Shown in pieces: positions 6,357 through 50,252 of a stretch of DNA of 64,000 nt. The position numbers were made by a program, and so were the translations under genes. Position 1 is the first letter of the stretch; each line of letters begins with the position of its first letter. The notes beneath the pieces are model-generated. The model had not been told where the DNA came from. It worked only from the letters and a program-made list of their open reading frames with translations, and searched no databases. This DNA comes from Prostheceraeus crozeri (taxonomy: Eukaryota; Platyhelminthes; Polycladida; Euryleptidae), in NCBI GenBank assembly GCA_907163375.1, contig CAJQUW010003455.1, positions 186,001 through 250,000 of the forward strand, read 5' to 3'.

Positions 6357-7278
6357 TTGACCCAAAAATTAGGAGTTGTGGCTGAATTCACCCATGTATA
6401 TCATTATGTAACGCAAAACAACAAGAGACATCAATTCTCGGAAAGAAAACAGATTGCCGGACGTTCTTGGGTTGATGGCTTTCTTGAAAGACACCCGGAA
6501 ATCTCGACTAGGAGAGCCCAAACACTAAATCAGGTTCAGCTTCTGAGCTCGAGCTGGATTTAGTGAATGACCATTTCGCCAAATTGAAAGCTTTTATGGA
6601 TGAACACGAATTACACAACAAACCGAATCGCATTTTCAATTTGGAAGAAAAGGCTTGCCGCTTGTCAATTCACAAGCAACAGAAAGTTCTCGCAAAGAAA
6701 GGAGCGAAGAGGGTTCATCTGATGGGTCAAGAACATGGTGAAAACGTAACGATCGTGGCTTGTCGGTACATCGTACATCGGTACATTGTGTTGGTACATC
6801 GCTGCAGGATCTGTACCGCCGCCGATGATTATCTTCAAGGGAAAAAGGTCCAACCCAACGTTTGGAGACGATCTTCCACCGATGTCTATATTCGCCATGT
6901 CTGAAAAAGGTTGCATGACCAATGATATATTCATCAGGTGGTTGGAACACTTCAATGAGCACAAGCCTAAAGGAAGAGTTCTCTTGATATTTGACGGAGC
7001 TGCATGTCACTTAAGTCCGAAGATCGTCGACGTCGCTGACCTGTATGAAATCAGCTTGTATTGCTTGCCATCAAACACAACTCATGAGTTGCAGCCGATG
7101 GATCGATCCGTATTCAGATCCTTTGAATACCACTGGGATGAGGAAGTCTTGAAATTCTGGAGAACATTCCCTGGACGAAACATTACCAAGGAGCGATTCA
7201 GAAAACTGTTCACACCTTGCTGGAATCGGTCGCTTACACTTGAAAACATCATGAGCGGGTTTCGCGTCACTGGGATTT
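6357..7278 (+). pseudogene. pogo/Tigger (jerky-like) transposase, N-terminal and DDE part
   Basis: The reading frame begins open at 6357 without an ATG; the upstream part, including an N-terminal psq-type helix-turn-helix, is missing or on a lost exon. The first block carries a CENP-B/Tc5-type DNA-binding segment (RSWVDGFLERHPEISTRRAQ). The DDE_1-type core follows: FNLEEKA, where the family normally has Asp in NxDE; LLIFDGAACHL with the second Asp; and SNTTHELQPMDRSVF with the third. The frame changes near 6555 and again near 6775, where an expanded GGTACATC repeat splits the conserved VAC..AAGSVPP segment. The frame is cut at 7278 by the CAGGGTG element and resumes at 9124. Frameshifts, an altered first catalytic residue and an insertion make this a dead copy. 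Confidence 0.85.
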
Positions 7279-7279
7279 C

Positions 7280-9123
7280 CAGGGTGTCCGCGACTTTCCT
7301 GGAGTGTTTTTCCAGGTTTTTTCCAGGTTTTCCAGGATCTATCAAATGAGACAGATTAGTTTGATTTTCGAAATACGCATAGACGACAACAGGAATATAC
7401 ATGGGAAGTCCTATATATTCCAATAAACAACACAAAACAATTGTTCTTCTAATATCATTTCTTTAAATATAACAAACTATTTCTATAATATAACAACCTC
7501 ATAATATTTCAATAACAACTTTGATAAGAATGTAAAAAAGAAAAATAGAAATGCGAATAGCAAAAGGACATGGAAAATGTTTCTGACTAGCGGATTGTGT
7601 CATATGTCATTCGAAGATAGTAAAAAAACAAAAACTGCACGGTAGCGGTCAATTTGCCAATGAAGTCAACACTAAAAGGAGGAAATGTTGGCAGGAGGAA
7701 AATGATGAGGTGTTTATATTACTGTAAATTCTTGATCTCATCATTGACTGATATGATGTTGTCCTGTACTTCCTGTACTTCTTTTCTCTTCCCACATGCC
7801 GCTGTCAGAGGAGCGAAAACTACTTTTAGACATGATCATGTTCAAAATCCAAATTATTTCTGCTTCAGAGACTTCTTTATCAATTACAAAGTCGGAAACA
7901 TCGTGACATTGTACAGTAGGATCAGTTGCATATTTATCAGAACGTTGTTCACCTTTCGAACCTGATCCTAAAGAACTCGTCTGCTTTATAATCTTGCACA
8001 AATCTAAATGCTTCTTTCCGCCAGCATGGCTTCTTACGGCTTGAAAACTCATATTCGAGACATCAAAGTCTTTCTGACAAACTACAAAATGCATTGAACA
8101 GAGTTTTACCGCGCTGGAGCCATTCTGAGCACTCAGACCGGTGGCACCAGAGTGGGTTGAAGGAAGTCTTGGATTGTCCTTTCGGCATTAATCTTTCTGA
8201 AAGGATGGTCAAATTATGCACAATTAAGGAAAAACATATTAAAAATGATTAAATAATCCAAAAATCAACTTTCTCTTCTTCTTGGATGCATAGTTGTAAT
8301 CAGTGAAATATATTAGGTTCAAGTGTAGCCCTAGCATATTTCTTCCCTAAGACTTTTATTTGTGGCACTCTCCAACAAAACTAGCTCACCAGGAGTCATT
8401 AGGTTTAGTAGGTGATACCAATCTTTGCTTTAATCATACGCGTTGCGTTGTATGTAAGAAGACTACGTTCGGCTTTTTTTAAGCGTAGGGAAAGTTTACA
8501 ATTGACAGTGTCCATTATCATGAAACTATCATAATCACATTGGCAAATACAAGTCAAACGATGGTCTAGCTAGAATACTTAATGCAAACAATTAAGCTCT
8601 GAACGTAATTCAAGCAATTCAATTGTTAAAAATACAGGATAGTGTTTTTTGTCTGTGATCATATTCATAACTGAATTATAATAGATTTATGCATGTAGAA
8701 GGGATTTAGCTAGTGTACATAATCACAGATATGGAGTAAACACTGATATTTAACATAATAATAATACACATGCAAACATACAATTTAATTAAAGATAATG
8801 CGGCATGAAGACCCACTCTTTCAGTACATTGTCATTAAATAAAAACAAATTGTGATAATTGAATACTTTATTGAAGATACGTCAGGATATAACAAAATAT
8901 TAAAAAGATTTCACTCTATAAAATTTATAAAGATAAAATCACTCATAACAAATCACATCTTTAAAATGTTGAGTGCATTAGCAGTTAGTGGAATTTCACT
9001 AGGTAACTTAACTTCACACTATCCAGGATCAATCAATTTCCAGGTTTTTCCAGGTTCCTTTAATTTCCAGGTTTTTTCCAGGATCAATCATATTCCAGGT
9101 TTTCCAGGGGCGCGGACACCCTG
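7280..9123. mobile_element. 1.84-kb DNA element with CAGGGTGTCCGCG termini
   Basis: A perfect 13-bp terminal inverted repeat, CAGGGTGTCCGCG at 7280-7292 and CGCGGACACCCTG at 9111-9123, bounds the element. It sits inside the Tigger reading frame: left flank GGGATTT (plus one extra C), right flank TTTATCC. Removing the element and one TTT gives a continuous GI-YPFDKSVIP reading frame, so TTT is probably a 3-bp target duplication. Both ends carry tandem TTCCAGG-TTTT runs in the same orientation. Inside is a minus-strand coding scrap (7741-8188). A second member lies at 43288-44686. Confidence 0.8.
7741..8188 (-). pseudogene. Zinc-finger-type transposase N-terminal fragment
   Basis: The minus strand opens at the ATG ending at 8188 (MPKGQSKTSFNPLW) and, after a frameshift near 8095, reads VVCQKDFDVSNMSFQAVRSH followed by GGKKH. 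This is a BED/U1-like zinc-finger pattern with one of the expected cysteines not clear. Further on, AEIIWILNMIMSKSSFRS precedes a stop. I recognise this block from multi-copy transposon proteins of marine animals and insects but cannot assign a superfamily. The catalytic part is absent, so the 7280-9123 element is probably non-autonomous. Confidence 0.5.
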
Positions 9124-9765
9124 TTTATCCATTCGACAAGTCGGTTATTCCCATTGAGGCATGAAGTGACCAGGATCACAGACTTGACTTCAGTCACTGC
9201 GATGGAAATTCCTCCAGAGATAAGATCACAGACAGTCACTGATACTCTGATGGATTGCGATCAGATCGAGCATCAGCCGACAACATCCCGAGAACCTACA
9301 GTGAATGAAGTGCCCCTCCATGAGGACGAACCAACGACATCAAGTGATCAGCACGCGCCATTAAGGACATCACTAGAATCTCCCAACACGAGCTTCAAAG
9401 AACTGTTGAGCTCTCCGAGACTTGAGAAGCGGAAGACTACACCAAGGCGAAAGAGTGTAAATTACAAAGCTCAGCTATTGACTCAGTCACTGTTTCAAGA
9501 GAAATGCGATGACACCTCTGACAAGCCATTGAAAATGAAAAAGAAAGTCGAGATCAAACGCAAAAGGAAAGAATCAGCGAGACCGGCACCGATCAATCAG
9601 TCAAACACAGGATGGTATTGTTCGATTTGTGACGAGGACTGTGTAAAAGACATGCGGATGTGCATGTCTTGCGAAGAATATTTTCACGACGAATGTATTG
9701 GCTTCACAAAATCCGACAATGAGACATTCATCTGCTGCGACTGTGATCCTACCTTTCACCAATAA
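9124..9765 (+). pseudogene. pogo/Tigger transposase, C-terminal part with PHD-like finger
   Basis: This continues the gene split at 7278. YPFDKSVIPIEA follows directly at 9126, then hits a stop near 9161; the rest is open in another frame (about 9154-9765). It contains the linker typical of insect and invertebrate pogo-type proteins (SFKELLSSP and NYKAQLLTQSLF), a Lys-rich stretch, and a C-terminal PHD-like Cys/His cluster (CSICDEDC, CMSCEEYFHDEC, CCDC). The terminal TAA is at 9763. The frameshift just after the junction means the protein would be broken even without the insertion. Confidence 0.8.
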
Positions 9766-11967: not shown

Positions 11968-12159
11968 TAGTATAGTCACCCTAGTAACTATGATAGTGCG
12001 AAAAAGTATTGATATATTTGTTCTATACTACCCCTCGTAAGACCATAAATCAAATATAATTATGATTTAAAAACTTTGAGAAATTCAAGAACTAATGGTT
12101 TAATTGCTTTGACTGAGAAACACGTGGATATATTGTTATCAATTACATGTACATTTCGA

Positions 12160-12168
12160 GAGTAATTG
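12160..12168. repeat. 9-bp target-site duplication, left copy
   Basis: GAGTAATTG lies immediately before the foldback element and is repeated exactly at 17156-17164 immediately after it. Confidence 0.9.
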
Positions 12169-13026
12169 ATGTCGTTGAAATTAGCACCAACTTCAACACC
12201 AACTTTTTGAAGAGAGTTTGTACATAATAGAAAACCACATGTATAAGTACTACTGATGACGCACAGTTTGTACAGACAAAATTTTTTCCAAAATTCGAAC
12301 TCCTTCACCTTCAAAATTCAAATTTAAATTCGAAAAATTGGTGCAAGTATTGGTGCTACCTAGATAGCGAGTTTGTACAGCAATCCGACTGAAAAATTTA
12401 GATACAAGAACAAGAAACTGAGTTTGTACAGCAACTTCCAGCACTTCCCTTATACGAACAACCGGTAAAAACCGACTTTTTCAGAAAATGATAAGATTTT
12501 CCAGAAAAGTTCTTGGTGCTACATGGAAAATGAGTTTGTACGGTGCTCTAACCGGTGGAAGAGTGTTCTACTAATCGAGTCTGAGTTTGAACACACACTT
12601 CTCCGACACTCCAGCACTCCTACGACCGGTAAATACCGGTTATTGTACAGTAACTACAAGAATACTGCCCATTTATGAACAAATCAATTGGTGCCACATG
12701 GAAAATGAGTTTGTACAGTGCTCTAACCGGTGGAAGAGTGCTCTACTAATCAAGTCTGAGTTTGAACACACACTTCTCCGACACTCCAGCACTCCTACGA
12801 CCGGTAAATACCGGTTATTGTACAGTAACTACAAGAATATTGCCCATTTATGAACAAATCAATTGGTGCTACATGGAAAATGAGTTTGTACAGTGCTCTA
12901 ACCGGTGGAAGGTGTTCTACTAATCGAGTCTGAGTTTGAACACACACTTCTCCGACACTACAGCACTCCTACGACCGGTAAATACCGGTTATTGTACAGT
13001 AACTACAAGAATACTGCCCATTTATG
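12169..13026 (+). repeat. Left arm of the foldback element
   Basis: The outer about 360 bp is unique sequence containing repeated GAGTTTGTACAG words. The inner part is tandem 175-bp units anchored by GAGTTTGTAC at 12532, 12707 and 12882, the last cut short. Each unit contains two CCGGT-type palindromic words (ACCGGTGG; CCGGTAAATACCGG). Confidence 0.9.
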
Positions 13027-13517
13027 AACATGGAATGATAAGTTTCTCTTAGTTGGCCGTCAAAGTAAGCGAATTCAAAGTCTCTTTTACCTCGTGATTG
13101 GGATAAATATGACATGGTCTTGGTGTTATTGCAACTAAGTACGTTTTCATATAGTGTTGCGAATTAAATTCCGATAATAGGTTGGGAATGTAGTATGAAT
13201 TGACGGTGATGTATTTCGCTCCTATCTTTGTGATAGAACAACTGATGTTTACAAGAAATTCTTAAGTCCTCAATCGCTACCTAGAATAGACATTTTCACA
13301 TATAGAAGTGGATCTTGGTCTATTTGTGGTTGCAGAATTGATGTAGTTCATTATTTCGATAGATTTATGTTTATGTGAGATAAAAATGGGAAGTTTTTAT
13401 ATGGTCAGTTGATATATTTATCACGTTATTCCGCTTTGAGGCTACTTCCAAGCGGACGTGTCTACCGCTTACACGAAACAATGGTATCACATCTACTTTG
13501 GCCATGACTAAAAGTGC

Positions 13518-13584
13518 TTGAGCGCGACAAATTGTTTTTCTGCAGTTCGACCGGAATTGCAGAAAAAAAATTTGTCGCGCTCAA
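13518..13584. repeat. 31-bp-arm hairpin
   Basis: The arm at 13518-13548 (TTGAGCGCGACAAATT start) pairs with 13554-13584 at 29 of 31 positions around a 5-bp loop. Confidence 0.85.
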
Positions 13585-14625
13585 AATAATTCTATCTTGG
13601 TGGCAAATTTTTGCGACAGATCTCCAACGAGTAATGTTTTCAATTCAACACATGCGTTAATTAATTCGCTATTAATAAGAATCTATGCTATTCAATTTTT
13701 TTGGTTGCTCTAGGCCTACCTATTAGCCTTTTGATGCATGAATTATTTTCAAAATTAAAGTTTTTTTGCTGAAGATGAAAAAGCAATTCAATCTCTTGAC
13801 AGCCTTGTACTTTTTACTTAGTCTAACTGGTTCCCAATTTTGATTGTATTACTTCATTTTCATTTCTATGGAATATAAGTATTTAGTTATTCACTAATGA
13901 ATTATTCAAAGTTGTTCTTTATAATTCAATGAAATCAAGAACACATTGCCATTGTATTTGTTACACAGATCACTGCAGGATCAATTATATCCAAATATGT
14001 GATGACTTCTTCACGACAAGAATATGATGTACATCGAAAGAGCTGATTCAATAAGATGTCCATTTGCTGTTGCTAAAAATAAAGTATTGACACTGTTCAA
14101 CATTGCCTCGGTTCCTTCGAATATCAGGTGACCTGCTCTTCACACAATCTATCTGTCGATGCGCGTATTGGATGTGACGTGCTTTATATTAATTGCTAGC
14201 AGCGGCTGTGAAGAAATCTGTTCGTTAAATGAAAGGACAAATGAAAGCTGCTTGCGTCACTATGGAGGCTAAGTGCCAGATGGACGAGCCCATAGAAATA
14301 AACTGTTTATCTATAGGCCTAACTTCTTACTAGAAGAGACTTTTAGCTTCATAACTGAATACCAGAGTTCCATAAGTGGACAGGTAGTATAATCAAACTG
14401 ATATTCAGTTACAATTCTCATGTGAAACTTAGCGATATCATATAGGCGAGTTGTAACTGATTGCAGGAGATAAATATATCACCTGACCACTGACAGTAAT
14501 TTGTCAGACAAGGAGCTGACTAAGGTGAACTAGTGAGCTCTCGAAAATCTCTCTCCAAACTTCATCTCAGCTTATGGTCGAACTATAGAAAATGTTGTGC
14601 ACAAAAGCACTTTTAATCATCACTA

Positions 14626-15064
14626 CACTAGGTGACATGCCACGCTCAATCACGCGTAATTACACATGACCCCAAACATCCGTGGCTATGCGGGATATTG
14701 CTGCAATATAAGTTAGTATAGTTGGCAGTCCTGTTATATAGACTTTGCGTCTCATGTGTCTGCATGTATCAGAGGCTAAACAATGTGATAGGACCTCAAT
14801 TTCATGCTCAGGGACGACAGAACATGTTTAGCGGTTCATCCGTGATTCAAGCGGCAACGCAGACAACCGTAGACGACGCGCAAACTATAAACGCTCGCCC
14901 GCGCATATTCATAAACATTTCCCATGTTTTAACAGCATCAGATCAAGTGATTTCTGACTCTTAGTGCAGCGCGTATGTACGCGGGTAGAAGAATAGAATG
15001 TCCTTAACCACGGATGTTTGGGGTGTTCCGTAATTACGCGTGAATCACCTAGTGTCACCTAGTG
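14626..15064. mobile_element. 439-bp MITE with CACTAGGTGAC ends, TA-flanked
   Basis: Ends CACTAGGTGAC and GTCACCTAGTG are exact inverted complements, each bordered by TA (14624-14625 and 15065-15066). The inverted repeat extends imperfectly for about 60 bp, including CACGCGTAATTAC and CCCCAAACATCCGTGG with their inverted partners at 15008-15052. The TA flank suggests Tc1/mariner-type mobilisation. It is nested inside the foldback element, so it inserted later or was carried with it. Confidence 0.8.
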
Positions 15065-15825
15065 TATCCCGACCATTTATTTTTGTATTTTAAAAACTTT
15101 ATCGCTTGGTCACATTGTTGGTCATTTACGGTTCATCGTATAGGCTATACGCAAGCCTGTACAATTCTTTCTTTTATACCTTTGATTGTTTTCCGGATTT
15201 TACTAATACCTTAAATTCACATATGTAGACAAACTTTTTTCCTTTTGTATTCTACGGATTCCATTGTTTCGTCCTATCAGCTAGACTATGGGCAAGTATA
15301 TGCAGTTTTTACATTTATTATACCTTCGATTGCTTTCCAGATATTAGTGATGAAATGCAAGCAACACTTACTATCAAGATTGTTGTTTTTTGCCGTGATT
15401 TTTAAGTGCACTTGTAGTTGCTTTATTAACTACAATTTCTTGACACAACTTAGTACAGGCATTTTCAGCGATGTTCCTCTTTTCTATGACTTGTAGTTGT
15501 TATCCTATCTGACCTTTCTATGCTGTGTTTCCCACTGCAATAGAGTATGTAAAAATTGAGAACTCGATATTCATCTGTCGTCCTTCTCCCATGTCAGCAT
15601 TTGGATTTGGTGCAGCTATTCATTTTTGGAGTACCGCCTCAATTAAGCTTTTCACCCGTGACCTTCATGGCGTACACGCCTTTTTCCAGAGTTTTGTGCA
15701 CCATTCTCAGTAGATTTCATATTTTGATGAATATCAACAATTCTTGAAACAAAACATTGTTTTAATTGTCGTTTCACTGGTCAAAACTAGCGATTCAACC
15801 GACAATTCAATTTTGAAACAAGTGA

Positions 15826-17155
15826 ATTTTGAGAAGTGTGTGTTCAAACTCAGACTCGATTAGTAGAACACTCTTCCACCGGTTAGAGCACTGTACAAAC
15901 TCATTTTCCATGTAGCACCAATTGATTTGTTCATAAATGGTCAGTATTCTTGTAGTTACTGTACAATAGCCGGTATTCGCCGGTCGTAGGAGTGCTGGGG
16001 TGTCGGAGACGTGTGTGTTCAAACTCAGACTCGATTAGTAGAGCACTCTTCCATCAGTTAGACAACTGTACAAACTTATTTTCCATGTAGCACCAATTGA
16101 TTTGTTCATAAATGGGCAGTATTCTTGTAGTTACTAGATAATAACCGGTATTCGCCGGTCGAAGGAGTGCTGGAGTGTCGGAGAAGTGTGTGTTCAAACT
16201 CAGACTCGATTAGTAGAACACTCTTCCATCGGTTAGAGCACTGTACAAACTCATTTTCCATGTAGCACCAATTGATTTGTTCATAAATGGGCAGTATTCT
16301 TGTAGTTACTGTACAATAACCGGTATTTACCGGTCGCAGGAGTGCTGGAGTGTCGGAGAAGTGTGTGTTCAAACTCAGACTCGATTAGTAGAACACTCTT
16401 CCACCGGTTAGAGCACTGTACAAACTCATTTTCCATGTAGCACCAATTGATTTGTTCATAAATGGGCAGTATTCTTGTAGTTAGCCTACTGTACAATAAC
16501 CGGTATTTACCGGTCGTAGGAGTGCTGGAGTGTCGGAGAAGTGTGTGTTCAAACTCAGACTCGATTAGTAGAGCACTCTTCCATCGGTTAGAGCACTGTA
16601 CAAACTCATTTTCCATGTAGCACCAATTGATTTGTTCATAAATGGGCAGTATTCTTGTAGTTATTGTACAATAACCGGTATTTACCGGTCGTAGGAGTGC
16701 TGGAGTGTCGGAGAAGTGTGCGTTCAAACTCAGACTCGATTAGTAGAGCACTCTTCCACCGGTTAGAGCACCGTACAAACTCATTTTCCATGTAGCACCA
16801 AGAACTTTTCTGGAAAATCTTATCATTTTTTGAAAAAATTGGTTTTTGGCGGTTTTTTCCGGTTGTTCGTGTAAGGAAAGTGCTGGAAGTTGCTGTACAA
16901 ACTCAGGTTTTTGCTCTTGTATCTAAATTTTTCCATCGGAATGCTGTACAAACTCGCTAACTAGGTAGCACCAATACTTGCACCAATTTTTCGAATTTAA
17001 ATTTGAATTTTGAAGGTGAAGGAGTTCGAATTTTGGAAAAAATTTTGTCTGTACAAACTGTGCGTCATCAGTAGTACTTATACATTTGGTTTTCTATTCT
17101 GTACAAACTCTATTCAAAAAGTTGGTGTTGAAGTTGGTGCTAACTTCAACGACAT
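15826..17155 (-). repeat. Right arm of the foldback element (six units)
   Basis: Inverted relative to the left arm. The TGTACAAAC anchor recurs at 15892, 16067, 16242, 16417, 16597 and 16772 (the last with C for T), giving spacings of 175, 175, 175, 180 and 175 bp. The 180-bp step results from a short insertion (GCCTAC region) near 16485. The outer part mirrors the left outer sequence and ends TTCAACGACAT. Confidence 0.9.
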
Positions 17156-17164
17156 GAGTAATTG
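17156..17164. repeat. 9-bp target-site duplication, right copy
   Basis: GAGTAATTG, identical to 12160-12168. Confidence 0.9.
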
Positions 17165-17231
17165 ACCCATATCTGATATGTACATGTATATACATAAATA
17201 GTACTGTATATACAGTTGTTGTTCTTTGCAG

Positions 17232-19367
17232 GTGGGTCGATGTGCGCAGACCAGCAAGGATCAGCGGAATCCGAAAGGAAACGAAGAAGAATATCAGCTT
17301 TCAAGAGTACGAGCATCATCAGTGAGGCATCCGTTGCTGAAGAACGAACAGGAGGACTGATTGCTTCAGCCTCAGAACTCATTGTGACTGACCCAGTGTT
17401 TGCAGATATATCATCTTCCACCATCTTTGATCGACCTCCAGTGTCTAATACTGCATCTTAAATAAACAAGAACCCAGGGCCATCGCTTGAGAATTTTGAG
17501 ATTCAAACATGTTCACTCTTGGCACTACTGCAGCCAGACGATGAACCATCGTCGGAATATCAATTAACTGTCGATGATAATCATCATGATATCACTCCAG
17601 AAGAATTTCAAGTAGACGACCTTTCAATTGAAAATATTGAGAGCACTTCAGACGATCAGACGAGAAAATCGAAACGTAAAGGTTCTTTGATCAAACAAAG
17701 TCGCAATGCTGGAAACAGTTAACGATCCGAAAAATTGAATGAAATGAAACACGCTGCAAAATTAGGAGACCGTTGTTCGGTAACTAGTCGATGTAAGAAC
17801 AGAGGACTTCATTGTAAAATTATTACGGAGGAGCAGCGAGTTACCATATTCAGCGCGTACTATGCACTACCTGATTTGACATCAAAGCGTACTTATCTGA
17901 ATTTACATGTCCAACAAGAAGACTGTAGTAAAGCAATTGGTAAATTGAGACAATACACCAATCATTATTTTTTAACAGTTGATGGAAAGCGAGTAGAAGT
18001 TTGCAAAAATGATGTTTCTCAATACTATGGGCATATCCGAGCGACAAGTTATAACAATGCATCAGAAGAGAGGTTCTGAAGGTGTATTTTCTCCAGAAAA
18101 ACGTGGGGGTTATTTCGGTCAAAGAGCAATCGATTCCGAGAAAGAAACGGCAGATATTCTTCAGCATATCAATCGATTTCCTAAGGTAGAAGCCCACTAT
18201 GTCAGAAAAGATAGCTCTAAACACTATTTGTCATCGGATCTCACAGTTCCAATAATGTATAATATGTACAAGCAAAATTGCGATACGTCTGATACTGCGT
18301 CATATAGCAAATATTACAAGATTTTCAAGATACAGAATCTCAGTTTCTTTCGCCCGAAAAAGGATCAGTGTGGACTTTGCACTTCAGTTAGAGATAGAGA
18401 ATCAAATGATAATACGGTTGAAGGAAAACAGAAATATGACGATCACGTTGCACAAAAGCAGAAGACAAGGATGGACAAGGCTTCTAGCAAAGCAAAGGCC
18501 GAAGAGAATTTTCAGCATGTCAGTTTTGCATTTGATCTTGAGCAAGTGATTCTACTTCCTCAGTCAAAACGTTCCGAGATTTTTTACAAAAGACGCTTGA
18601 GTAATTATAACTTGACATTATACAGTTTGGAATCATTACATTACATTACAGTTCAGGAATCATGGGCGTTTTTGTGGCATGAATACCTTGCGGGTCGCGG
18701 AGCGATCGAAATTGCATCTTGCATTCACCGATACTTAAGACATATTGATTCAAAGAAAACAGAAAGTGTAGATATGTTCTGTGATGGCTGTTCAGGCCAG
18801 AACAAGAATTCTATCATTCCAGCGATGATGCTTCACATGGTAGAAAATTCAATGCACATCAAGCGAATTCGTCTTATAATTTTGGTGCCACATCATGGCC
18901 AAAATGAAAATGACACCATTCACGCATGTGTTGAACGTGCTATGAAAAGAGCAGGTGATATTTTCGTTCCATCACAACTGGTACCGTTGATCCGATGTTC
19001 ACGGAAGAAACCAATTGAAGTTATTGAAACGACGACTGAAATGATATTAGACTGGCAAAAACTAGCTCAAGATCTTCGAATTTTGCGTATCCGGACCAGT
19101 AATTCAGGAGAGCAAATTAGATGGCCCAAGATGGCTCAAATAGAAGTAACACACTTAGCCGAAACCTTTGATCATATAGATCTCCGACAAAATCGTCGAA
19201 CTGCTTCCAATGATTTTCAAATGAATGAATTGCCTGATCCGTCTAGATTGCAATCACCATCTCTATCATCTGAGAAATATGCAGATCTGGTTTCCTTGTG
19301 TACCGGACCTACACCTATCAATCATCCGGACTATCGGAGATTTTATACCCAACTTCAGCATCAGTGA
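17232..19367 (+). pseudogene. DDE-like transposon protein with D-G-C-x-GQNKN motif (decayed)
   Basis: The open stretch follows a good acceptor (TTCTTTGCAG, ending 17231). One frame runs from 17232 to about 18007, interrupted by in-frame TAA codons at 17459 and 17720; a one-base shift near 18008 moves it to the frame that ends at the TGA before 19368. N-terminal features are acidic/Ser-rich. A Cys cluster (GDRCSVTSRCKNRGLHC) comes next, then VCKN/MFLNTMG, SFFRPKKDQCGLC, FAFDLEQVILLPQ, GRGAIEIASC, MFCDGCSGQNKN and PHHGQNENDTIHACVERA. I recognise this motif series from a very large, uncharacterised invertebrate family (probably the one catalogued as DUF7869, unverified). The acidic residues fit an RNase H-fold transposase triad, which is inference. 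Any upstream exon would lie beyond the foldback element. Confidence 0.75.
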
Positions 19368-22583: not shown

Positions 22584-22905
22584 ATACTATATGGAGGGCA
22601 TTACATAAACAAAGTCACCGAAATGAGAGGAGGGCCAATTCAAATTTTGGCGCGAAACTTTTTTAATGTTTTGTCATTATTATCTAAAATTACATGCTTG
22701 TCAGGGAAATGGATGAATTATCACAACTATGTTGTGGTTGATTCTTGTAAATTATTTTTTTTTATCTAAAATAAAAATAATGCCGAACGAGTATTGTTTT
22801 AGTGCACGCGAATTGGCCTGCGCTAATATGATTAGAGAGGTCACCTCTCTCGGTTATCTCTGCGAACTGTAGTAAATCTCGTGAGTTACTTCTATAGAAA
22901 ACTGC
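22584..22905 (+). mobile_element. 5'-truncated mariner remnant
   Basis: The stretch is a close match, in opposite orientation, to about 46400-46705. It begins exactly in the C-terminal codons of the mariner at 46.6-47.7 kb (reading NTIWRALHKQSHRNERRA to a stop) and continues through the same 3' region, including the AGAGAGGT / ACCTCTCT palindrome at about 22831-22848. Everything upstream of the last about 30 codons is missing. Confidence 0.8.
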
Positions 22906-42904: not shown

Positions 42905-43287
42905 AAAATTGAAGGGCCACTTCACGAGCTTCACAATCTATAAGAAACCATCGCGATCCTAAAGGGCCCCACGATCTCAAAGGGTCCCCTCTCGATTTCA
43001 AAATGGCCCTATCACAATATATAAGAACACCTCACGATCTCAAAAGGGCCCCTCCACAATCTAGAAGAAACTCTTACGATCTCAAGAGGTCCCCTCACGA
43101 TCTTACAGGGCCCCTCTCTATCTAAAAAGGGCCCTTTCACAATCTAAAAGGTCCCTCACGATCTCAAAAGGGCCCTTCACAATCTCAAAAGGTCCCCCCT
43201 CACGATCTCTAAAGAGCCCTTCACCATGTCAAAAGTGTCCTTCACAATCTTAAAGGGCCCCCTTCACAATCCCAAAAGGACCCCCTC
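42905..43287. repeat. Minisatellite of CACGATCTCAAAAGGGCCCC-type units, left part
   Basis: Imperfect units of roughly 22-28 bp with the core CACGATCTCAAAAGGGCCCC repeat across the stretch. It stops at the CAGGGTG element and resumes at 44687. Confidence 0.85.
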
Positions 43288-44686
43288 CAGGGTGTCCGCG
43301 CAAATTTAAATGAAAATTTCCAGGTGTTTTCCAGGATTTCCACGGTAAAATTCATGTTCCAGGTTTTCCAGGGAAATTTACCAAAAAAGGGGGTCAAATT
43401 TGAACGAAAATTTCCAGGCTTTCTGCAAGGAAATTTTGCTCAAATGCACGCGTCAAATTTAAAAGAAAAATTCCACGAAAAATCTACCCAAAGGAGCTTG
43501 CACACCATAAAATTAACATTGACGAAAAAATTTGAAAAGTGGCGTGAAATTGGTTGAATTTTTATGGCGCAGGTGATTCTAAATATAAAATACCAATATA
43601 TGCATCAGAGGCTACATTATAATTATAAAAAAAGAATATATAATCGATCGTAACAAATTTAAAGCTTGCGGATTGAGGAGAACAAAATAGAGAAAGAGTT
43701 TAACAATAAATAGCGAAAAATTAACGACTTAACAATAAAATGTAACATTAACGGAATATCTGTAGTCACATTTCATTGCAAAGTCTTATATCTTTCGTTA
43801 TTTGTTGTTATACTCTTTCTCTATTTTGTTCTCCTATTTGAACTGAAGCATTGCTGCGTGAATACATGGAAGGTGGAAGACCAAGAGCCAGAAAGATGAA
43901 CATAATGGTTGATGTGCTACATATGCATGAGAGTAATCACAATCAGTTTAAGAGAATGACAAAGAGAAGAATTGACCGAGGAAAGCTCATTGGCACACGA
44001 CGTGCCGGAAAGAAAATATCGACATATTTAAAACCTACTTGAAATGTGTTTGAAAATATTCGATATTAGCCTAGGATCAGTCGGAACAAGCCTGGTGGCT
44101 AATTAGTTATATGTTCAGTACCATTTTGCGTCAGTAGATTCTGCCACACGGCAATCAAGTGTGTAATAGCATTAATCCTAGATTACGGCTCCTAGTTCCC
44201 CATACCACACGCTCAGAGTCCACCATTCCACACGACGTTAATGAGGGAGTTCACAGCTCATAGTTTGCCATTCCGCGCGTTAATAAAGGAGTTTACGGCT
44301 CCTAGTTCCTCATACCACATGACGTTAATGAGGGAATTTACAATTTCTAGTACAACATACCGCGCAGCGTATGTGAGGGAATTCACAGCTACTAATTCAC
44401 CATACTGTACGATTAGGAGTTCGCCAACAGTTCATTGTTTACCATAACACGCAGTTCAGTCTCATTCATGTTGTATACGTTATGATAGGACATTACAATC
44501 ACTGAAATATTCTAAAAACAAAAAATTGTATGCGAATGAAGGCTATAATTGCAACAAATAAGCACAGATATGAAGAATAAAATCTGGAAAAATAGAACAC
44601 ACTTCAACAACTTGCAATTAATTAGTCTCAAAATTTCCAGGATAAAATTCATTTTCTAGGTGTTTTCCAGGGGCACAGACACCCTG
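43288..44686. mobile_element. Second CAGGGTG-terminus element (1.4 kb)
   Basis: Left end CAGGGTGTCCGCG (43288-43300) and right end GGCACAGACACCCTG (ending 44686) match the element at 7280-9123, as do the TTCCAGG-TTTT runs near both ends. It splits the minisatellite. Inside are an inverted pair (AGGAGAACAAAATAGAGAAAG near 43676 and its complement near 43813-43834) and a 45-50-bp minisatellite at 44180-44460. The open frame at 43851-44042 is Lys/Arg-rich (GGRPRARKMN, KRRIDRGKL) but unidentified. The low-complexity target hides the duplication. Confidence 0.75.
44180..44460 (+). repeat. 45-50-bp minisatellite inside the second CAGGGTG element
   Basis: About six imperfect units contain GTTAATGAGGGAGTTCACAG, then CTCCTAGTTC and CATACCACACG. 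Confidence 0.75.
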
Positions 44687-44815
44687 CCCCTTACAATCCT
44701 ACAGGGCCCCTCACGATATCAAAAGGTCCCCTCACAATCTCAAAGGGCCTAGCGATCTCAAGAGGGGCCCCTCTCAAAATCGTCAAGGGCCTCTCACCAT
44801 CTCGAAATGGCCCCT
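44687..44815. repeat. Minisatellite, right part
   Basis: Continuation of the 42905-43287 array after the inserted element, with the same CACGATCTCAAAAGG core. Confidence 0.8.
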
Positions 44816-46399
44816 GAAATGCTATAGGAAGCGAATTATTTGTTCCTTGGGAGCATTTTCCCACTACTTGGTTGAGTTTTTTTAAAAAAGCCGGAATTCC
44901 GGTTAAAACCGGGTGGCAGGCCTGAATCATATTGGTTACTTCAATTAATATTCGAAGAAATTAATATAAATGGTGGGCTCAAAAAAAGTCATAATAGTAG
45001 CAGTTGAAATAAAGACATTATGCTCGTTTAACATACTAGCAAAAAAATCACAAACTGGCATTTCCTGGGCTCGCCGCCACCGTTATACTCCGAAGTGAAG
45101 TGCTACTGAATCATTGTACGTACAAAACGGTAACCATATTCCTCACCTCAGGTTGTCCATCAAAATGCAATCCACAGAATAATGTTTAGCCGTCCATTCA
45201 TTGGTTGGCCACAGTCATCGTACCTTCGGAACCTCGCTTCGCAACCGTTGCTAGGAGATACCGGGTCGTGATTTTCTGTCCGAGGTCTCACTGTAAGATA
45301 GAGGAATTCGAAACACATAGCTGGATTTTATGAACTGCACCATGAGTAATTTTCTTGCTTGTTCAATAACAGTTCATTTAATGAAATCGAAACTGCATCC
45401 ACATTCCAGATTCATTTCATACCTACTTCTTAATCTACAATATATACGTTGTCCATGGCGGGTAGTCATCCCCACAGAAATTTTCAGCAATATTTTATCT
45501 ACCACATTTGATTAATTTCAATGAGAGGTTTCAATTCAAACCCAGGAAGTTGTACGCATCAGGTCAACTACCATGCTACATTCAATCAGTTTCGGAAGTC
45601 CTTCGTTTGTAGAGTTCGATATCCTGGTCTGTGAAATTGCAAGTGCTGTTGTGAATTCAATATCATTTTATATACAATGTTATCTCATTTCCCAAACCAC
45701 ACATTCTTTTCGTGGTCATCAACAAATGAAAGCCTACAGCATACAGAAATTGTTGGAGGCCATGTAGATACTGGAAACGATGCAAAAATTTTGGTGTCCT
45801 TTCATTATTTTCAGAGATCGGCCACCTGTCCGGAGAAATATCACTCTAAATGCTTACAAATTAATGAGACGCCTAGCATCTGTAAAAGCAAATGCATATC
45901 AGTGTGTTACGGAACTATTCTCTGAAAATTTCATGCTGGTGAGCTATAGAATGGCCAAAATCCAGACCAGACAGAACCATCTGTTTCTACGCGTGCATCA
46001 TCTCTTGAGTCCACTTATTTCTGTATTGCTCAAATATCAAATTCGTAGCCCATCACATTTTATCAACCGTTATGGGTTTACATAGGTTACATGGGTTGCA
46101 TACTTCTCGTATTTAGATGAAACTAAGACAATTTCGACTCACCGCATATACCTCTTCTTTCAAACAACCGACAGTGGGATAACGCGGCATTAAATGCACA
46201 ACTCAGATTTACATTTGGAAGACCGAGCGTTGCTAAATTCATCACCATTGCAAATCAATCTTCAACTCTGAAAAACAAACTGTGTTGAGGAAAGCGGAAA
46301 TATTTCCTAAAAATCTGATGTATAAACGCTCCCACTACAATCCCAAGTGATCTAAATGTCTAATTATCAAAGCCGTATGCCTGTCAAATGATCCAAGTT
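44816..46399. other. Non-coding stretch
   Basis: No supported gene. Overlapping frames at 45573-46085 have no motif I recognise. Confidence 0.35.
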
Positions 46400-47880
46400 T
46401 TTATAAAAGCTCACGAGTTTCTGTTCGTTGTCATAGAGATAACCGAGAGAGGTGACCTCTCTAATCATATTCGCGCCGGCCAATTCGCGTGCACTAAAAC
46501 AATGCTCGTTCGGCATTATTTTTATTTTAAATAAAAAAAATAATTTACAAGAATCAACCACAACATAGTTGTGATAATTCATCAATTTCCCTGACAAGCA
46601 TGTAATTTTAGATAACAATGACAAAACATTAAAATAGTTTCGCGCCTAAATTTGAATCGGCCCTCCTCTCATTTCGGTGACTTTGTTTATGTAATGCCCT
46701 CCATATAGTATTGCCGTTCGCGGCCAAACACTTTTCCCAGCGAACTGGGAGTGCCTTGAAAGCATCAAGGAAAAAAGCGGGAGGTAATAGGCCAAAACAG
46801 TTTCTTACAGTCTCTTCCAAAGCTGCGGCACTTTCAAAATGAGTCCCGCGGAGATGGCGTTTCAACTCGTTGAAAAGGCAATAGTCTGATGGAGCCAAAT
46901 CCGGGCTATAAGGTGGATGCTTCACAAGTTCGAAGCCCGCGCTGCCGATCTTCTCCAAGGCAGCTCGACAAGTGTGCACTGGAGCGTTGTCCTGAAGGAA
47001 CCAATGAGGCAGACCTCTTGGCTAGCGAACCTTGCTGCGGACCTGCTGAATCAGCTCGCCGTAATATTCACCGGTCACTGTCTCCTGTCTTTGTAGGAAA
47101 TCCAGGAAGATGATTCCTCCTGCATTCCAGAACGCAGTCAGCATCATTTCTCTTCGGATCGCTCCAGATCGTTGCTTCCAGACTTTGCCTTCATCAGGCC
47201 TCTGCCATTCCAGAGATTCTCGCCTGGATTCAGGTGCGTACAGGCTGTGGCGTTTCATCAACAGTGATGATGTTCCTCAAGAAATTATCGCCATGGCGGC
47301 GATAAATTTCAAGATTCACTAGGCAGGCTTCACGGCGTCAGGTGCACATCTCGGTGGTCAAGAAGCGCGGAACAAAGCGAGACGAAACCTTGTTGAAGCG
47401 CATTTCGTGCAGCATCTCGCCAACAGATCATTTCGACAGTTTCAGAGACTCAGCAAGCTGTCTTGTTGTCACCTTCCTGTCTTCAAGGCGCGGTTTTCTT
47501 CGTTGTCAGAAGTCTTTGGACGGCCTTCTCTTTCTTCGTCAGCCACAAGTTGACGTCCTCTCCTGAACTCGGCAATCCAAAACTTGATCGTCGATTCTGA
47601 CGGACACTTGTCTGCGTAAGCAAGAAGCAAGTTCGCTTTAATGTCTGCACTTGACTGACCAAGCAGAAGACAAAAACGAATCGAGCTTCGATACTCCACT
47701 TTATCCAAGTGATCAAGTCGCAATGAAGTCATCCTTTCAGTGCGCTTTCACGAGTGAAAATGATTTTTGACTAAGTGCGTTCGCTGGTTGAAATTAGATG
47801 TCTATGAACAGATGTCAGATCAGATATCTATGATCCTGACCGTTTCTAGCTCTCAAAGAACCAATGTATTGATTTCAGAT
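46400..47880 (-). mobile_element. mariner element, minus strand, decayed
   Basis: The element spans the transposase at 46629-47732 plus flanking sequence. Its 3' side (46400-46628) is shared with the truncated copy at 22584-22905. Outer ends are approximate; I could not identify matching terminal inverted repeats or TA duplications. Confidence 0.7.
46629..47732 (-). pseudogene. mariner transposase (DD34D), frameshifted
   Basis: The minus-strand ATG ends at 47732. The N-terminal helix-turn-helix part is readable (FCLLLGQSSADIKANL, CPSESTIKFWIAEFRRG). A frame change near 47480 leads to VTTRQLAESLKLS, a stop, and then IITVDETP with the first Asp. Further on come MLTAFWNAGGIIFLDFL and TVTGEYYGELI. 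The last block reads HWFLQDNAPVHT, then HPPYSPDLAPSDYCLF, with exactly 34 residues between the last two Asp, the mariner spacing. Several frameshifts and stops make this copy inactive, but all three catalytic positions remain. Confidence 0.9.
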
Positions 47881-49368: not shown

Positions 49369-50252
49369 TTTCTTTTTAAAAACATTTAAATCAACCTTAA
49401 GGATTGGCATACTTTAGTTAGGCACGCAATAACGATGGAACGATTAAGTGGTTAGGGGGGGGGGCTAAATGATTGCGTGCAGCAAAACAAATTTGCATGG
49501 GGGTAAATGAGGCATGTTTTTTTTTGCAGTTTTTTTTTTTTATCGCTAACTACCCTAGTGTGATGAATGGACTGTGTCGGTTACTGGTCTCCATGGGGTT
49601 GACATGGTGATTACTAAGTGTCTATTTATATATAAGTTCCTAATCAATCGAGCCTGAAACTTTGACCAAGGAGATCACTTGTTAAGCGGCCTTGTACGAT
49701 CTCGTACACTTAAGGGTGAAGTCCAGCCCGTATAGCGCTATGTTATGGACCCCCGGGTAGGTCCGCCCGGCACGCAATCAGATCCGTCAAGTCTTTGTGC
49801 TTAAAGACCTTCATGCATTCATGCATTTGTCGAGGATCACAAGTCAGAGGACCATTAGGGGTAAGGTCCAGCCCCGCTTTAGAAGCGCTGAGTGAAAAAT
49901 GGACTAGTGGGAAGGTCCTCCACACCGATCTCGTCAAGTTTGGCTCTAAAATGTAGTCCTAGGATAGTCAAAAGTTTGACGCGCCTTGAACGTTTAATGT
50001 CTGCCGGTGGGAACGCACCACCTGTCCTCTTAAGGACAAACCTTAAGTCTTATTAACTATAAGTTTATTAAAATTATGAAACATGTAGACATCGTTATGG
50101 GAATGTCCCAGCTTCAATGGTCTAAGCACTGATTCTCTTTTTAAACATTTAAATCAACTTTCAGGATTGGCATTCTTAAGTTAGGCACGCGATAACGATG
50201 GGGTAACTGATTGCGTATAGCAGAACAAATTTGCATGCGGTAAATGAGGCAT
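49369..50252 (+). repeat. Spaced direct duplication around a GC-richer core
   Basis: About 145 bp at 49369-49515 recurs in slightly shorter form at 50131-50252. Shared landmarks are CATTTAAATCAAC, GGATTGGCAT, TTAGGCACGC and ACAAATTTGCATG, and TAAATGAGGCAT. Between them is a GC-richer stretch (49680-50040) containing AAGGTCCAGCCCCGC-like words and no gene. It could be a tandem duplication or a small LTR-type element; no integrase or terminal TG...CA was established. Confidence 0.6.

Follow-up and report, generated by a model that had tools for sequence, protein, structure and literature searches.

Foldback-type transposable elements with modular 175-bp arms in the genome of the polyclad flatworm Prostheceraeus crozeri

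Introduction

The FB and FB-NOF elements of Drosophila have foldback arms composed of internal repeats and a 9-bp target duplication, and arms made of tandem arrays of widely variable length have already been described in a few foldback transposons of flies and nematodes. A stretch of 64,000 nucleotides of the P. crozeri genome (contig CAJQUW010003455.1 of assembly GCA_907163375.1, positions 186,001 to 250,000; hereafter, the window) contains an element of comparable architecture at positions 12169-17155. This element is probably a foldback-type DNA transposon of the cut-and-paste kind that is non-autonomous and would be moved in trans by a Mutator-like transposase using sites in the arms, as judged from its target duplication and architecture. 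Its architecture and target duplication were observed directly, and its membership of the Mutator group and the binding of a repeated arm motif are predicted from the sequence. The systems that appear closest in kind are Tetris, Tm1, and Galileo, the likeness having been drawn from published descriptions and not from sequence comparison. The duplication length of Galileo differs from that of the present family.

According to its description (PMC4079207), Tetris, a foldback element of Drosophila virilis, has an outer domain, then a variable number of approximately 220-bp tandem repeats, and a middle that seems to lack coding capacity, as was seen here. Further likenesses in that account are duplications of 8-10 bp, a 37-bp stretch shared by the flanking domain and the repeat, the occurrence of the repeats also as kilobase-size satellite-like arrays, and an autonomous partner that was not found. 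In contrast to the present element, the arms of Tetris also contain an inner domain, and its unit is about 220 bp rather than 175 bp. Three structurally complete copies of Tetris were reported (PMC4079207), whereas 882 exact tips were counted here. Tm1, a Mutator/Foldback element of Meloidogyne, is described as having composite inverted repeats with unequal unit numbers and 9-bp duplications, and as having non-coding members beside transposase-bearing ones (PMC3169594). It differs in its short repeats, mostly of 13-15 bp, in that its two outermost motifs are usually unlike each other, and in having a known Phantom-like transposase, whereas none was found for the present family in the parts searched. 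Galileo, a Drosophila element of the P superfamily, has long inverted repeats with internal tandem repeats that carry extra sites, and these sites were reported to bind the THAP domain of the transposase, the first as determined by footprinting and two more by gel shift (PMC3688188); binding was thus demonstrated there but is predicted here. A literature search by title and abstract start, the coverage of which was incomplete, found no published description of the present family.

Results

Structure of the element in the window

The element in the window is bounded by ATGTCGTTGAA and TTCAACGACAT, 11-bp ends that mirror each other, and a perfect 9-bp target duplication, GAGTAATTG, is present on both sides. 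Its features, in window coordinates, are as follows.

12160-12168: target site duplication, left copy, GAGTAATTG
12169-17155 (4,987 bp): whole element, with the ends ATGTCGTTGAA / TTCAACGACAT that are also found in other copies
12169-12512, + strand: left outer arm domain; AGTTTGTAC starts at 12215, 12265, 12370, and 12421, and diverged 175-bp units appear to lie inside
12513-13030, + strand: left array of three 175-bp units, the third incomplete at its inner end
13031-15830: interior of type A, inverted relative to copy L042; type assigned by comparison of copies, no protein recognised
14624-15066: nested miniature inverted-repeat element inside the interior, with TACACTAGGTGAC ends and TA on both sides
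15831-16801, − strand: right array of about 5.5-6 units of 175 bp, one spacing being 180 bp
16802-17155, − strand: right outer arm domain, an inverted copy of 12169-12512, 95% complementary over 306 nt
17156-17164: target site duplication, right copy, GAGTAATTG

The left and right arms are 862 bp and 1,325 bp long, respectively, and each consists of an outer domain (about 344-354 bp) followed by 175-bp units. Tandem Repeats Finder detected a 175-bp array in both the left arm (12513-13030, 3.0 copies, 96% matches) and the right arm (15831-16801, 5.5 copies, 94% matches), and anchoring by unit starts gave three units on the left and six on the right. An initial annotation of this DNA had claimed exact ends with an exact 9-bp duplication and arms of three versus six units; the former was confirmed at 12160-17164 and the latter by the unit anchoring. 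The longest inverted pair between the arms extended over 399 nt with 95% complementarity, and the two outer domains differed by 4.8%. The interior is 2,800 bp long and contains short open frames. It also contains a hairpin at 13518-13584, with 31-bp arms that are 94% complementary and a 5-bp loop (TTGAGCGCGACAAA...).

Copy number and target duplications in the host genome

The host genome, 14,165 contigs totalling 2.05 Gb, was searched using the commoner 23-bp form of the tip in the family, which has one base unlike the tip of the window copy. Exact matches numbered 882 (437 forward and 445 reverse), and the reversed-pattern control gave 0. A 25-bp core of the unit matched exactly at 7,805 places (4,407 and 3,398 on the two strands; control 0), or about 8.8 for each exact tip. 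When the outer 361 bp was used as a query, 1,448 candidates were obtained, and the 40 that were scored showed 91-100% identity; these were ranked by likeness to the arm of the window copy, and the sample therefore leans to its relatives. The rest of the 40 matches was covered by fetching 28 other places. Tips with another twelfth base were found at nine places, mostly as mutated copies of the same tip, including that of the window; another of the nine, on C684, had an outer domain with 80% identity over 266 positions.

Flanking 9-mers were scored in 23 copies, namely the window copy, 21 copies with both outer domains, and L027, in which the left bound is merely the start of arm-like sequence. 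Copies with one end in the fetched stretch (L029, L030, L031, L032, L035, and L038) were omitted. The two 9-mers were identical in 13 copies, matched at eight positions in two and at seven in two, and had fewer matches in six. Matches of at least 7/9 were thus seen in 17 of the 23 copies and of at least 8/9 in 15, compared with 7/9 in 2 of 506 mismatched flank pairs and none higher (at least 8/9, 0/506). Among the low-match copies, the left tip is damaged in L016 and L034, and L027 has no left tip in view. L041 has an 8-bp repeat shifted by three bases, and L015 matched at 5/9; in L028 the scored right end lay 12 bases too far out, and the flanks of its true tip matched at 3/9 by eye. It is apparent that target duplications accompany the element at dispersed insertion sites, as in foldback elements. 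The same ends in other copies and the 9-bp duplications flanking them, which the initial annotation had proposed to look for, were both found, and the 882 tips together with the 13 exact flank pairs exclude that the structure in the window arose by chance.

Seven of 11 aligned A interiors differed by 0.3-0.75% from their majority consensus, which is itself dominated by such close copies, and the outer arm domains were identical in 4 of 22 elements. The A interiors of the window copy (5.0%) and L015 (4.4%) were further from the consensus, and these copies appear to be either older or members of a separate lineage. These results indicate that the family is real, has been recently active, and has hundreds of copies in the host animal.

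Unit number and amplification of the arms

Unit anchors were counted in 49 arms, and 48 of them contained from 1 to 49 units. The remaining arm, on the right of L028, was counted as having 0 units despite almost 3 kb of arm, which is a counting miss. In the 21 elements counted at both ends, unit numbers were unequal in 19 and equal in two. The variable-size middle ranged down to 7 bp in L036 and 27 bp in L025, which are near-pure palindromes; long inverted repeats of internal direct repeats around such a middle are characteristic of foldback elements. The longest counted arms were satellite-like, with 49 units in L032, 43 in L038, and 38 in M10446. Arms of this kind could be taken to indicate a local inverted duplication or a satellite array and no transposon; this reading is extremely improbable, having already been refuted for the family by the identical tips at hundreds of places and the site-specific 9-bp duplications.

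Of 282 extracted units, 274 were exactly 175 bp, so that arm length changes by whole units. The nearest relative of a unit, ties counted, was found in the same arm in 204 of 282 cases, compared with 42% for shuffled labels (200 shuffles, every third unit tested). Units of one arm differed by 1.6% on average and neighbouring units by 1.8%; the mean was 2.5% when the two arms of an element were compared and 2.3% when different elements were. Same-arm nearest relatives are expected from local unequal exchange, and the pattern would also fit slippage or other local amplification. Thus, the earlier suggestion that arms grow and shrink by unequal exchange agrees with the whole-unit steps and same-arm relatives, and slippage remains as an alternative to it. 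The 282 units gave no sign that the two arms of an element exchange sequence.

The outer arm domains were mutually closest relatives in 14 of 22 elements and not in the other eight, the window copy included. General continuous homogenisation of the two arms was dropped on the basis of these eight exceptions and of the units, which do not cluster by element across arms. M10446, with arms of 6,975 bp on one side and 696 bp on the other, has exact 9-bp flanks and 38 versus 2 units, and its outer domains differ by only 0.3%; therefore, arm growth can be fast.

Repeated arm motif and origin of the outer domain

The motif AGTTTGTAC occurs seven times in the left arm and ten times in the right arm of the window element, always directed inward, and is absent from its interior; it was not detected on either strand of the window outside 12101-17200. 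In 22 elements, 191 sites of this type were in the + and 199 in the − orientation, and no + site was found beyond the first − site. The single orientation within an array follows from tandem repetition and is no independent evidence. The commonest spacings of GTTTGWAC in these elements were 51 bp (225 cases) and 124 bp (147 cases), which together make one unit.

The consensus of the outer domain contains four GAGTTTGTACAG sites as two pairs 50-51 bp apart. In 2,000 dinucleotide shuffles of the outer domain, a fourfold 12-mer was never obtained, a fourfold 11-mer was obtained in three, and a fourfold 9-mer in 17. The outer domain was also aligned with the unit on the family consensus, with 1,000 mononucleotide shuffles as controls. 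Its inner part scored 120 against the 175-bp unit (shuffles, 66.7 +/- 6.4, maximum 90). The score of its outer part was marginal (93.5; shuffles, 68.4 +/- 6.5, maximum 92.5), and that between the outer and inner parts was not significant (82.5; shuffles, 70.8 +/- 6.9, maximum 100). These results suggest that the outer 344 bp does not stand entirely apart from the array and comprises one clearly and one weakly related diverged unit. The arm therefore resembles one continuous array that reaches from the tip to the interior and is most diverged at the tip, where the assignment of the outermost unit depends mainly on the motif pair. We interpret the repeated motif as a predicted binding site of the transposase.

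Interiors of the copies

There are two interior types, A and B, with unrelated middles. They are alike towards both ends, over about 0.9-1.0 kb on one side (86-91% identity) and about 0.36 kb on the other (89-91% identity). Each has its own insertion of a 458-bp miniature element, the one also nested at 14624-15066 in the window copy, at different sites and with TA at the edges, except that one edge in A reads CA; the empty site corresponding to the insertion in B is visible by eye in A. Among the midpoints of 20 further tip-paired elements, chosen from the first 100 tip places, 16 had interior B, one had a Tc1/mariner-like frame (by eye), and three were unmatched.

One A interior (L042) and one B interior (L037) were translated in all six frames, stop codons being replaced by X, and no Pfam family exceeded its curated cut-off in either. 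Weak matches to PPP2R1A-like HEAT (2.9e-4; 21.7 bits, cut-off 27), TxDE (0.021), and CoiA_C (0.021) were taken as chance. Coding capacity was further assessed for interior A alone. The longest frame of its consensus, 122 aa, was within the range of mononucleotide shuffles (mean 95, 95th percentile 130), and 3-base periodicity of variable sites was not found in 11 A interiors, including that of the window. A transposase inside the interior was accordingly rejected; the examined copies contained no recognisable gene. Nested sequence is present in the long interiors of L016, L019, L023, and M2723; by eye, frames resembling reverse transcriptase were seen in L016 and M2723, and one resembling mariner in L023. 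L022 contains about 2.4 kb of additional sequence that lacks a long frame. The claim of the initial annotation that the element is non-autonomous and foldback-like is supported by the shared ends, the duplications, and the lack of a recognised protein.

A segment nested in copy L035 (600-5970) has integrase-like, ATPase-like, and other frames and resembles a Maverick/Polinton.

Search for the transposase

The host genome contained 559 candidates for PF10551 (MULE), of which 150 were scored, and the search with PF20700 gave two matches among 16 candidates. No MULE transposase was recognised at the 20 sampled midpoints. The autonomous partner was thus not found rather than shown to be absent, since part of the MULE and tip lists was compared. 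The Mutator-like kinship proposed initially fits the 9-bp duplication and the architecture; the transposase expected between the same ends was not found in the parts searched.

In the P superfamily, which has a THAP transposase, duplications are 7-8 bp, in contrast to the 9 bp observed here. The same foldback element might still have a mover from another superfamily (P/Galileo-like, Merlin-like, or undescribed) that gives 9-bp duplications, and we regard this as a possible but clearly less probable explanation. It would agree with the lack of a MULE between these ends in the parts searched, and Galileo is described as having foldback-like arms with internal binding sites outside Mutator (PMC3688188). 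However, the commonest duplication length is exactly 9 bp (13 of 23 copies), which lies inside the 8-11 bp given for MULE target duplications (PMC6446971).

Just past the right end of the window copy, a series of open frames (17158-19367) leads to a protein with a DUF7869 match (17997-19364) of 24.2 bits, slightly below the cut-off of 26. That this gene is part of the element or its driver seems very unlikely. It lies about 0.8 kb past the right end of the element, and in copy L030 a diverged DUF7869 frame was found some 3 kb inward of the left end; however, the gene in the window is outside the target duplication, and L030 was the only one of the 28 other fetched places with a match in the sequence read there, which was 29.8% identical to that of the window and fits chance nesting of another repeat. 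The protein has 116 relatives, the named ones from molluscs and arthropods and the best (61% identical) unnamed. These relatives are often on short contigs and may represent a repeat family of their own.

Relatives were also sought in viral contigs. The paired-motif pattern gave five loci with two or three motifs each, none of them arm-like; two of them (L005 and L002) are unrelated tandem repeats, the five loci matched the arm or interiors over 24-31 bp at best (E 0.001-0.004), and the tip and unit core gave 0 matches in viral contigs. A protein search with the longest frame of the arm yielded one unnamed 133-aa match, 77% identical, on a 608-bp contig, and therefore a relative of the arm exists elsewhere.

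One MULE locus, L044 (C7856:93600-97900), has a 482-aa frame, which we take to be of the FLYWCH type. Many equally scoring 482-aa frames are present in the genome, which suggests a young MULE family. Beyond this frame there are GACTATGCGAAATGA-like minisatellite repeats.

Other features of the window

A frame with a DDE_1 transposase domain, presumably pogo/jerky-like, is located at 6750-7349, and a later frame at 9064-9765 has a weak PHD-finger match. An inverted pair of interspersed repeats (22584-22903 and 46396-46711) is 92% identical over 321 bp. A tandem array at 42929-43284 is built of degenerate 21-bp repeats and also shows longer periods, of 62 and 125 bp, with related copies near 44686-44814. 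An unidentified repeat at 49858-50118 shares 98.9% identity with the sequence flanking copy L024 on the left.

Discussion

A Mutator-like transposase is proposed as the mover of these foldback elements because the duplication is 9 bp. Several observations count against this explanation or its parts. None of the 150 scored PF10551 candidates (of 559) shares a contig with the first 100 of the 882 tip places (by eye), and where a contig is shared with any of the 40 arm places (C8453, C11284, and C2697) the candidates are at least 36 kb away. Two MULE loci with open frames, L044 (482 aa) and L045 (452 aa), are bounded by different ends and lack the arm motif. Fewer than seven of nine flank bases matched in 6 of 23 copies. 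Conservation of the motif in young units (0.987 and 0.995, compared with 0.987 overall) was not clearly higher, and two of the four outer motif sites are mutated in the C684 copy. With respect to arm growth, the two arms of one element (2.5%) are no closer than different elements (2.3%), and adjacent units (1.8%) are no closer than the arm average (1.6%).

The transposase would be encoded elsewhere in the genome, most likely by a member of the Mutator-like (MULE) superfamily, and would recognise the tip. The uniformly oriented, repeated GAGTTTGTACAG sites of the arms could serve it as a landing array. It would then pair the two arms and excise the element, which would be reinserted with a 9-bp stagger. 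The arms may lengthen and shorten by unequal exchange between units, and long arrays may become satellite-like DNA. A bolder version of this scheme, which we put forward as a rather unlikely one, is that the arms are loading arrays for a possibly undescribed transposase, each arm forming one tandem array throughout, oldest at the tip, with fixed site spacing and a length under selection, and that the family, while still transposing, is turning into satellite DNA at least about 1.4 Mb of the 2-Gb genome (a minimum, with 175 bp allowed for each of the 7,805 exact unit cores).

Binding of the arm repeats by the transposase was stated in 2013 to be untested for Foldback and Phantom elements (PMC3688188). 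With 882 exact tips and arms of 1-49 units, the present family makes two questions testable, namely whether the arm repeats are bound and whether the arms grow before or after insertion. The family would represent an independent, high-copy, and recent case of foldback arms becoming satellite-like arrays, as proposed for Tetris.

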